From Prevotellaceae bacterium (GTDB lineage: Bacteria; Bacteroidota; Bacteroidia; Bacteroidales; Bacteroidaceae): a stretch of DNA of 38,236 nt. The translations under genes and the position numbers were made by a program. Positions 1-38,236 of the stretch are shown here, piece by piece. The notes below the pieces were generated by a model, which saw only the letters and a list, made by a program, of their open reading frames with translations, did not search any database and was not told the origin of the DNA. The stretch's first letter is position 1. Every line of letters begins with the position of its first letter. The DNA is taken from the NCBI GenBank assembly GCA_031262995.1, contig JAISGR010000052.1, positions 1-38,236 of the forward strand, read 5' to 3'.

Positions 1-30
1 GTCTGCATCTGTCTGCATCCGTCTGCATAT
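1..30. repeat. 10-bp tandem repeat x3 (gtctgcatct/gtctgcatcc/gtctgcatat)
   Basis: Direct reading of window start; may be truncated at the left edge. Confidence 0.7.
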
Positions 31-175: not shown

Positions 176-347
176 CTATTTTAAAAAAGCGTGCGTTCGA
201 CCTAAGCCGCGGACAGAAGAAAAGCTACGCCACTGTATCGCTGCCTTGACAGGACTATCTCACAGTGTTTGATCTGACTTTAGTAACATGAATGATTTTG
301 ACAATATCTAAAGGATAACAGGGTGTTGACAGGAGTAGGCACAGTAA

Positions 348-435
348 GGTCGTATACTTGACCCTGTCTGGTCGTATACCTGACCATGCCTGGTCGTATA
401 CTTTACCGGGTTCAGTCGTATACTTTACTTCACCC
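348..435. repeat. 22-bp tandem array x4 (ggtcgtatacttgaccctgtct type)
   Basis: Unit starts at 348, 370, 392, 414; core GGTC-gtatac-nt-GACC dyad. Confidence 0.9.
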
Positions 436-540
436 CCTCCTGAAGGTATTGTAGGGCATCTCCATGAACAACGAGGACTTGCTACAAGCAGATTCGGAAA
501 AAGATTAACAGGCTGTGGTATCCTCAATCGGTGACGGCAC

Positions 541-628
541 ACTTACGCTACGTCAGCGTAGCACTTACGCTAAGGTAGCGTAGCACTTACGTTAGGGTAG
601 CGTAACGCTTACGCTAAGGCGGTGGAGA
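541..628. repeat. 22-bp tandem array x4 (acttacgctaaggtagcgtagc type)
   Basis: Unit starts at 541, 563, 585, 607; unit 2 has perfect dyad TACGCTA-agg-TAGCGTA (566-582); array ends directly at the stop codon of the minus-strand sigma factor gene. Confidence 0.9.
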
Positions 629-7436: not shown

Positions 7437-7746
7437 GTGTACAACTTTCACTGAGAGCATTAGGGAGAATAATAATAGGAAATAATCCGATAAAACCCTT
7501 TAATAACAAATTATTTAATGATGTTCTTGTGCACAATACTCTTGCAAAAAGCAGGATTATTGAATGAAAAGCAATAGCAAAAAAGGAGCCAATCAAAAAC
7601 GCTGTCACTTATCATACAATTATCAGTCTATCCAAAAAATTAGCAGCACCTCACTGATATGACCGTGGCGAGCGGCGATAGCTGGATCTACAAGCTGATT
7701 AACAGTTTGTTACGTGTGGTTTTTCTGGTAGTGATAAAAGTCGTTG

Positions 7747-7835
7747 CTTTCCCGGGTCGTTGGAAAGGCTTTCCCGAGTCTCGGGAAAGGGTTGTCCAGA
7801 GTCATTGGAAAGGCTTTCCAACGACTCGGGAAAGG
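7747..7835. repeat. 22-23-bp array x4 of palindromic units (ctttcccgagtctcgggaaagg type)
   Basis: Unit starts at 7747, 7769, 7791, 7814; unit 2 is CTTTCCCGAG-T-CTCGGGAAAG; unit 4 is the reverse complement of unit 1 at 20/21 positions. Confidence 0.9.
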
Positions 7836-7919
7836 CAATGCCTTGGAGACGGGGAAAATGTCCAGCCGGCGCGCAGAAAAAAGGAGGCGGAAAAGGGGGA
7901 CAAGTTAGGGAGAACGCTT

Positions 7920-14543: not shown

Positions 14544-14610
14544 TGGTATTGATTAGATATAGAAAATTCACAAAGTATAGATGGTTATATATAATGAATA
14601 TGGAAACCCT

Positions 14611-14679
14611 CCATAGGAGGCTATGGAAACCTTCCATAGGAAGCTATGGAGACTTTCCATAGGAGGCAGTGGAACTGTT
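14611..14679. repeat. 23-bp array x3 (ccataggaggctatggaaacctt type)
   Basis: CCATAGG starts at 14611, 14634, 14657; dyad CCATAG-gagg-CTATGG. Confidence 0.9.
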
Positions 14680-16407: not shown

Positions 16408-17274
16408 ATGAAACAACTGCAAATCACCCGCCTGCTCCCCTTCCTGCTCCTGCTGCTCTGCGCGGTTCCCGCCGCGGCACAGACCGCTGCCGATTCGGTG
16501 AAGATTGTCACCGCCGACTGGCACGTCACCACCCTGCATAAAGACATGACCTGCTACGAAGCCCGGTTCGACACCCTTTACGGACTGCCTCAGAGCATCG
16601 CGATACTGGAGCTGTCGCCCCGCACCTACCGCTTCGATGTCGAGGTGCACATCCCCCGCGAAACGGTAGCCGCCGCTGCCCACGAGCTGGGCGCCGTAGC
16701 AGCCATCAACGGCGGATTCTTCAAGGAAGACGGCAGCTCGAGTACCTATCTGCGCAAGAACGGCATCGTGCTCGACACCACCGTGACCACCAAGCTGAGC
16801 ACCGTGGTCAACGGTGCCATCCAGATCCGCCGCGACCGGATCGACATCACCCCGTGGACGCGCTACTCTGCCGACACCTGCTCGCTGGCAGGCGGTACGG
16901 TGCTGGTCGCCGGTCCGCTGCTGCTGCAAGGCGGGCACAACTACAGCTTCGCCACCGTCTATAATCAGGCGTTTGTCAACGCCCGCCACCCGCGCAGTGC
17001 GATGGCAAACAAGGCGAACGGCAACATACTGCTGGTCGTTGCATCGGGCAGACTGCCCGGATATGCCGAAGGGGTCAACCTGCCCCAGCTGCAACACCTG
17101 CTGCGCATACTGGGCGGCAAAGATGCCATCAACCTCGACGGAGGAGGCTCGTCCACCCTGTGGAGTCTCTTTGCGCCCGACAACGGCGTGCTGAACCAAC
17201 CATCCGACAACAAACTGTACGACAGCCACGGCGCGCGCAAGGTGGGCAACTCTATCTGTGTCTATGATGAATAG
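16408..17274 (+). CDS. Phosphodiester glycosidase family (NAGPA-like) secreted protein
   Basis: Signal peptide; AINGGFFKEDG, NARHPRSAM, AINLDGGGSSTLW. Confidence 0.9.
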   Translation: MKQLQITRLLPFLLLLLCAVPAAAQTAADSVKIVTADWHVTTLHKDMTCYEARFDTLYGLPQSIAILELSPRTYRFDVEVHIPRETVAAAAHELGAVAAINGGFFKEDGSSSTYLRKNGIVLDTTVTTKLSTVVNGAIQIRRDRIDITPWTRYSADTCSLAGGTVLVAGPLLLQGGHNYSFATVYNQAFVNARHPRSAMANKANGNILLVVASGRLPGYAEGVNLPQLQHLLRILGGKDAINLDGGGSSTLWSLFAPDNGVLNQPSDNKLYDSHGARKVGNSICVYDE

Positions 17275-18220
17275 AAACCGCTACCTCTATCACCTCATCG
17301 CCCTTGCTGCCGTTACGGTGTGGGGGCTGACCTTCATTTCGACCAAGAAGCTCATTCAGTTCGGCATCACCCCCGAAGAGATCTTTGTGCTCCGCTTCCT
17401 CGTAGCCTACGCGGGCATTTGGGTCTTGGCGCTATTCCCCGCCCGCGGCGCCTCGCCCCGGCAGCCGGCGTCGGCAGCCGGACAGGTCGACTCCCCCCGC
17501 CGTTTGTGGGCAGCTTCGTGGAAAGACGAACTGCTGCTGTTGCTGGGCGGCATCACGGGCGGTTCCGTCTATTTCTGGGCGGAGAATACGGCATTGAGCT
17601 ATACGCAAGCCACCAACGTGTCGTTCATTGTCTGCACGGCTCCCCTCTACACGGCGCTGCTCTCCCTGCTGATAGAGCGGAAGGAGCGGGCTACGCTGCC
17701 CTTGCTGTTCGGCTCGCTGCTGGCAGTGGTCGGCATGGGGCTGGTGGTCTACAACGGGCAGTTCGTGCTGAAACTGTCGCCGCTGGGCGACATCCTCTCC
17801 CTGACCGCCGCATTGGTCTGGGCTTGTTACAGCCTGATTATGCGGCGCATGAGCGACCGTTACCACACGCTCTTCATCACCCGGAAGATATTCTTTTACG
17901 GCATCCTCACCATCCTTCCCACCTTTATCTACAAGCCGTGGAGCGCAGGGATGTCGTTGCTCGTGCAGCCCGCCATCCTCTTCAACCTGCTGTTTCTGGG
18001 CGTGCTGGCATCGCTGGTGTGCTATGCCGCATGGAACCTGGTGCTCCGGCAGCTCGGCACGGTACGCGCTTCCAATTACATCTACCTGAATCCGGTCTTC
18101 ACCCTGCTGGGGTCGGCGCTCTGGCTGAGCGAACAGATCACGGCAACGGCGCTGCTGGGAGCAGGGTGTATCTTGGCAGGGGTGTACTGGGCAGGGAAAC
18201 GGGGAGGAAATCAATCGTAA
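17264..18220 (+). CDS. DMT-family transporter (EamA)
   Basis: Ten-TM pattern; LAAVTVWGLTFISTKKLIQFGITPEEIFVLRFLVAY, YLNPVFTLLGSALWLSEQIT. Confidence 0.92.
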   Translation: MMNRNRYLYHLIALAAVTVWGLTFISTKKLIQFGITPEEIFVLRFLVAYAGIWVLALFPARGASPRQPASAAGQVDSPRRLWAASWKDELLLLLGGITGGSVYFWAENTALSYTQATNVSFIVCTAPLYTALLSLLIERKERATLPLLFGSLLAVVGMGLVVYNGQFVLKLSPLGDILSLTAALVWACYSLIMRRMSDRYHTLFITRKIFFYGILTILPTFIYKPWSAGMSLLVQPAILFNLLFLGVLASLVCYAAWNLVLRQLGTVRASNYIYLNPVFTLLGSALWLSEQITATALLGAGCILAGVYWAGKRGGNQS

Positions 18221-18224
18221 ACAA

Positions 18225-18522
18225 ACGTGAGTTCGACCTAAGCCACGGGCTGAAGGAGATCGACGCCACTACTGTCCCGCTACCTTGATATGACTATATC
18301 ACGGTGCTTGATATGACTATATCACGGTGTTTGATATGACTATATCACGGTGTTTGATATGACTATATCACGGTGTTTGATATGACTATATCACGGTGAT
18401 TGATATGACCATATCAAAGTGTTTGATATGACTATATCAAAGCCATCTGCTAAGGTGGGGCGCACTTACGCTACGGAAGAGGTACATGGTCGGCATTACC
18501 CTTTCTTATATCGAACTTACGT
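18225..18522. mobile_element. MITE-like non-autonomous element with internal 23-bp minisatellite
   Basis: Terminal inverted repeats ACGTGAGTTCGACCTAAG (18225-18242) / CTTATATCGAACTTACGT (18505-18522), 15/18 matching; flanked by TAAACAA at 18218-18224 and 18523-18529; related sequence at 38126-38236 (inverted) and 189 onward. Confidence 0.75.
18285..18445. repeat. 23-bp tandem array x7 (ttgatatgactatatcacggtgt)
   Basis: Unit starts at 18285, 18308, 18331, 18354, 18377, 18400, 18423; each has dyad TGATAT-gact-ATATCA (one unit gacc). Confidence 0.97.
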
Positions 18523-18540
18523 TAAACAACAGGCATTCGA

Positions 18541-28158: not shown

Positions 28159-28312
28159 ATCGCGATGCGCATGGAAGTTTATCGCGATGCGCATGGAAAT
28201 TTATCGCCATGCGCATGGAAATTTCCGTCTATACGCAAGAAAATTTCCGCCTATACGGAAATAAATTTCCAGCCAGACGGAAATAAACTTCCGCCTATAC
28301 GGAAATAAACTT
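28159..28312. repeat. 22-bp tandem array x7 with two sub-families
   Basis: Units 28159, 28181, 28203 (atcgcgatgcgcatggaaattt type) and 28225, 28247, 28269, 28291 (ccgcctatacggaaataaattt type); dyad TTTCCG-cctata-CGGAAA. Confidence 0.93.
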
Positions 28313-28435
28313 CCCGCCATACGTCGTTCAGAGCGGGGGTATTCCCCTTCTTTAAAAAAGAATCGCCGAAATAAGTATCATTATGACAGCAAAGAAAACT
28401 ATATATGTATATTTGCAGCCGATTTAGCTTACATA

Positions 28436-38125: not shown

Positions 38126-38236
38126 ACGTGAGTTCGATGTAAGAAAGGGTAATGCCGATGTACCCCTTCCGTAGCGTAAGTGCGCCCCCACCTTAGCGGA
38201 TGGCTTTGATATAGTCATATCAAGCATCGTGATATA
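38126..38236. mobile_element. Second copy of the MITE-like element, inverted relative to 18225-18522, truncated by window end
   Basis: ACGTGAGTTCGATGTAAG terminal repeat, then near-identical (reverse complement) match to 18423-18504 including gcgcacttacgctacgg and the TGATATgactATATCA unit. Confidence 0.8.

Follow-up and report, generated by a model that had tools for sequence, protein, structure and literature searches.

The window, i.e., the whole stretch of 38,236 nucleotides analysed here, carries at 18225-18522 a short non-coding element that sits in the narrow gap between convergent genes of the EamA and helix-hairpin-helix families. The features of this locus, and the related features found elsewhere in the window, are as follows.

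17258-18220, plus strand: EamA-family transporter gene, upstream of the element
18218-18224, no strand: left copy of the target-site duplication, TAAACAA, which opens with the TAA stop codon of the EamA gene
18225-18242, plus strand: left terminal inverted repeat (TIR) ACGTGAGTTCGACCTAAG, matching the right end at 15 of 18 positions and common to IS982 elements
18243-18285, plus strand: head of 43 bp, conserved across copies
18286-18439, plus strand: array of seven 23-bp units with the core TGATAT-N4-ATATCA
18440-18504, plus strand: tail of 65 bp, conserved across copies
18505-18522, minus strand: right TIR CTTATATCGAACTTACGT, pairing with the left TIR
18523-18529, no strand: right target-site duplication TAAACAA
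18578-19507, minus strand: helix-hairpin-helix protein gene, converging with the EamA gene
189-552, plus strand: copy of a second subtype, with its left TIR at 189-206, head and HU-gene leader, the right part entering the 22-bp array at 540-619
38126-38235, minus strand: another array-type copy, cut off by the contig end and retaining its tail end and first units
348-425, 540-619, 7746-7836, 14599-14674 and 28159-28323: intergenic arrays of a 21-24 bp class

Since the left TAAACAA opens with the stop codon of the EamA gene, this gene was left intact by the insertion. TRF reports a 23-bp unit repeated 6.7 times at 18285-18439 (94% match, score 275), and counting by palindrome cores gives seven units, TGATAT-gact-ATATCA, at exact 23-bp spacing. 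The coordinates that the sequence-only reading had assigned to TIRs, flanks and array are all correct. Its inverted repeats matching at 15 of 18 positions were confirmed on recomputation, TAAACAA stands exactly on both sides as it had claimed, and its seven 23-bp units are borne out by both counts.

Searched against its own genome, a 2.3-Mb assembly in 186 contigs that is 74% complete, the element gives 31 BLASTN matches and is thus not a chance arrangement. These matches resolve to about 19 array-type loci sharing its ends, 10 of them with both ends and spanning 273-435 bp when complete, plus the second-subtype copies. Similarity breaks off exactly at ACGTGAG...CTCACGT and does not continue past these termini, the flanks beyond being unrelated. 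The two TIRs match at 15-16 of 18 positions in nine of the 10 complete array-type copies and at 12 of 18 in the remaining one. Allowing at most one mismatch, the TIR pattern occurs at 19 forward and 18 reverse sites in the home genome, and at none in the control. Complete copies lie mostly at or past gene ends; the orientation of the neighbouring genes, judged by open frames alone, is ambiguous because this GC-rich genome commonly has long antisense frames. Several copies are truncated or rearranged, including L013, L017 and L018, the last of which (C168:12429-12640) is an array with an inverted tail on each side. Two other copies, L002 on C12 and L008 on C87, have right flanks with 85-90% identity across more than 1 kb and left flanks that differ, which would fit a segmental duplication or a rearrangement with its breakpoint at or near the element.

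Target duplications were assessed in 12 complete copies, namely the 10 array-type copies plus two second-subtype copies. Five of them have exact 7-bp duplications (TAAACAA, GGTATTA, TACGCTA, TAACCTG and TTGTTTA) and one has a duplication matching at 6/7 (TGAATTA/TAAATTA). When left and right flanks were permuted among the 12 copies, the observed six duplications of at least 6/7 were reached in one of 100,000 trials, which upholds the 7-bp flanking duplication noticed earlier at this locus. The other six copies are without a good 7-bp duplication; among them, one has a 6-bp direct repeat, TCTTTA, and one has its right flank within a duplicated segment. The search for empty sites succeeded in part. 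The copy on C109 interrupts a 22-bp dispersed repeat, GCACTTACGCTAAGGTAGCGTA, which stands whole at window 555-606, and its flanks joined with a single TACGCTA rebuild the repeat unit. This empty site is a paralogous repeat context, not an orthologous allele. For 18225-18522 itself, 160 genomes of the genus yielded no orthologous empty site, since its flanking genes are not adjacent in the nearest relative, G146; there, EamA is followed by no element but by a different downstream gene.

The ends of the element, of the ACGTGAGTTCGA type, match those of an IS982-family insertion sequence of about 1,032 bp in other Bacteroides. There, a transposase of 301 aa, scoring 254.9 bits against the NCBIfam profile NF033520 (transpos_IS982; cut-off 130), lies between paired TIRs at a distance of about 1,032 bp from each other. 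Of 151 genomes of the genus, 60 carry the TIR pattern, against few matches in the control. A B. finegoldii plasmid element annotated as IS982 family also has ends that are closely similar, together with a TAAATA repeat. Copies of the insertion sequence and other MITEs with these ends are flanked by 6-8 bp duplications, as is the element described here. MITEs of 56-238 bp with identical-type IS982 ends also occur in other Bacteroides (L139, L141, L143, L144, L145 and L148), mostly with 6-8 bp duplications and some with hairpin-like interiors. The described IS1187 of B. fragilis, an IS982-family member, is 1028 bp long with 7-bp repeats, and ends of this family mostly begin with AC (PMC7335449). 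By this published description, the insertion sequence of Bacteroides resembles IS1187 in its length of about 1.03 kb, AC-starting ends, 7-bp direct repeats and IS982 transposase (PMC7335449), whereas the element here has the ends alone and does not encode the transposase. Beyond the TIRs, its interior has no clear sequence in common with the IS982 element.

In the home genome, a family search of the 74% complete assembly returned only fragments of IS982, and an intact copy may be absent from the data because of the incompleteness and the division into 186 contigs. On C168 the remnant is a left end whose N-terminal frame has decayed; C18 and C42 have right ends, and C37 has an N-terminal piece. 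Searches with the N-terminal remnant of 43-45 residues against NCBIfam and by tblastn gave no match, the queries being too short and decayed. Repeats of 10 bp and of the GTCTGCATCC type adjoin IS982 remnants and contig ends (window 1-28, L060, L061 and L072).

The assignment to an IS982-type MITE family is well supported. Because the ends match an IS982 insertion sequence and also persist on degenerate IS982 pieces in the home genome, the element is most likely a MITE mobilised in trans by an IS982 transposase and carrying the array as cargo, with a probability of roughly 0.9. The earlier view of a non-coding, non-autonomous MITE depending on a transposase from elsewhere is thereby supported, a transposase gene between matching terminal repeats being found in IS982 of other Bacteroides. 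IS982, in an IS1187-like form, is the clear candidate mobiliser. Its transposase would recognise the ends of about 18 bp (ACGTGAGTTCGAYNTAAG) and move everything in between, and insertion would create a target duplication of 6-8 bp, usually of 7 bp. The interior would travel as gene-less cargo made of the head, the array of 23-bp palindromic units and the tail. Array length and unit order would shift by slippage or recombination while the arms stay near-invariant, the palindrome perhaps being kept by a reader, either a DNA-binding protein or a hairpin in RNA or DNA.

The array itself evolves in a particular way. A survey of 105 units, 28 of them distinct, places variation mainly at four positions outside the palindrome arms, mostly as transitions. 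Among the 10 complete array-type copies, pairwise difference is 0.75% in the arms, 18.9% in loop and spacer, 12.1% in the head and 13.5% in the tail, so that variability in the arms is about 25-fold lower than in loop and spacer. Complete copies contain 6-12 units. Units within one copy differ from each other as much as from those of other copies, their order is scrambled from copy to copy, and no unit-by-unit orthology between copies was detected (distance of 2.10 for the same index versus 2.05 for different indices). Together with the near-invariant arms, this lack of within-copy or index signal indicates a fast turnover of units during which the palindrome is retained. The genome has 121 occurrences of the palindrome TGATATNNNNATATCA, against none in the control, and all of the listed sites fall inside these elements. 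Its near-invariant arms suggest that it is maintained by some reader and that their conservation reflects function, which raises the question of what reads TGATAT-N4-ATATCA.

It is possible, if rather doubtful, that the array has a cellular role, as protein-binding sites, a terminator or a transcript stabiliser, and that the MITE merely spreads it. The contrast between almost invariant arms and variable loop and spacer speaks for such a role, as does the location of complete copies mostly at or past gene ends. The predicted RNA fold of the element is also far stabler than shuffles (z -4.5), a value not counted as evidence of function since tandem palindromes and TIRs produce such stability by construction. 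On the other side, promoter and terminator scans within the element gave no signal above shuffles, no partner protein is known, the listed palindrome sites are all confined to these elements, and arm conservation could equally stem from the mode of amplification of the array. A cellular role is compatible with the IS982-MITE explanation and does not exclude it. The REP/BIME sequences of enterobacteria are dispersed intergenic palindromes, often clustered, like the array here; unlike the element, they are not known to have IS982 TIRs or 7-bp duplications.

Copies of the second subtype (window 189-552, C59, C186 and C50) have the array-type head and, where it is retained, the tail. Their interior is a segment of about 250 bp that combines a 22-bp GGTCGTATAC array with the 5' portion of an HU-family gene, of which an intact form stands on C98 (L190; MAFYKKIQKKINSLWYPQSVTVGKPV..., TIGR01201). 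This HU leader of about 250 bp, with the first codons, is dispersed over about 14 loci of the genome (window 288-535; L187-L196). Some of its copies lie inside a MITE, and several loci, in the home genome and in G146 (L149 and L174), are without TIRs.

Such HU-leader segments dispersed in the home genome without TIRs, the truncated or rearranged copies (L013, L017 and L018) and the duplicated flank that two copies have in common could suggest that recombination or duplication, not transposition, has spread the family as a dispersed intergenic repeat, whose TIRs would be fortuitous or secondary. This is very improbable given the exact ends amid unrelated flanks, the five different exact 7-bp duplications with one empty site, and the fact that the ends are common to an insertion sequence.

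The 23-bp array also recalls BrickBuilt, which the sequence-only reading had put forward as a possibly related family. BrickBuilt elements, reports of which are confined to P. gingivalis and P. gulae, are short and non-autonomous, are composed of a leader, a 23-nt tandem array and a tail, and number 19 copies in one genome (PMC4596501). Repeats of 22, 23 and 41 nt have been reported in P. gingivalis W83 (PMC4596501). The BrickBuilt TIR, GAGACCTTTGCA, is of the IS5 type (PMC4596501 Table 2), and BrickBuilt target duplications are irregular or absent (PMC4596501). That the present family is a BrickBuilt homologue in another Bacteroidales lineage, moved by an IS5-family transposase, is likewise very improbable: although architecture, unit length and copy number are alike (PMC4596501), the TIRs differ (ACGTGAGTTCGA versus GAGACCTTTGCA), the present family duplicates its target with a regular length of 7 bp, and IS982 transposase genes were found between identical-type ends. 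Membership in BrickBuilt was rejected on the IS982-type versus IS5-type TIRs, and the resemblance is one of architecture only, i.e., leader or head, 23-nt array and tail. TIRs of the ACGTGAGTTCGA type, as in the element here, are found in P. gingivalis on MITE239 (ACGTGAGTTCGATATAAAGGAA), ISPg3 (ACGTCAGTTCGA) and MITE700 (TCGAACTCACGT) (PMC4596501 Table 2), which apparently never took in minisatellites (PMC4596501). ISPg3 has been filed under IS5 (PMC4596501), whereas the insertion sequence with these ends here belongs to IS982 by its transposase profile.

A MITE with a 23-bp minisatellite is thus not peculiar to P. gingivalis, and the BrickBuilt-like architecture also occurs on the ends of another transposase family, IS982. 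Searches for array-type copies in relatives, plasmids, phages, viral contigs and GTDB genomes returned only weak partial matches, and the relatives have the TIR in common with the array-type element. Within the searched collections, the family therefore appears new in its sequence and ends, its architecture being known already from BrickBuilt.

The element further points to a class of period-locked intergenic repeats in Bacteroides, which is a less certain part of the analysis than the IS982-type MITE. Sampling 207 kb of the home genome gave 40 arrays, of which 30 have a period of 21-24 bp; for 664 kb from other Bacteroides the figure is 46 of 80. These statistics come from partial sampled stretches (L209-L263) rather than whole genomes, and the contigs are not strictly random, several of those from relatives having been picked through earlier search matches. 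At lags 22/23, recurring 9-mers number 167/282 per 100 kb in the home genome, 81/17 in the genus and 2/9 in other families of the order, with about 0-10 at most other lags. The concentration at period 21-24 was not seen in the samples from other families of the order or in 50 kb of E. coli. The units are unrelated in sequence, the 30 home-genome arrays forming 27 clusters. Judged by open frames rather than annotation, six of these 30 arrays fall within a long open frame, as against 86% of random stretches; 24 of the 30 lie between genes, as do 27 of the 46 elsewhere in Bacteroides, more often than chance. Palindrome arms of at least 6 bp are present in 10 of the 30, where 1.0 would be expected. 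A search of the open-access literature found no description of period-locked Bacteroides arrays. Tentatively, and with odds somewhat short of even, the MITE array may be one member of a genus-wide class of intergenic arrays whose units, unrelated in sequence and in the home genome often palindromic, keep to a length of 21-24 bp, which is about two turns of the helix. Tandem units of about 22 bp would then be generated or preserved in Bacteroides by a process dedicated to this and independent of sequence, and MITEs would be able to bring them to new sites. The density of arrays with a period of 21-24 bp is 14.5 per 100 kb in the home genome, 6.9 in the genus and 2.0 in other families of the order.
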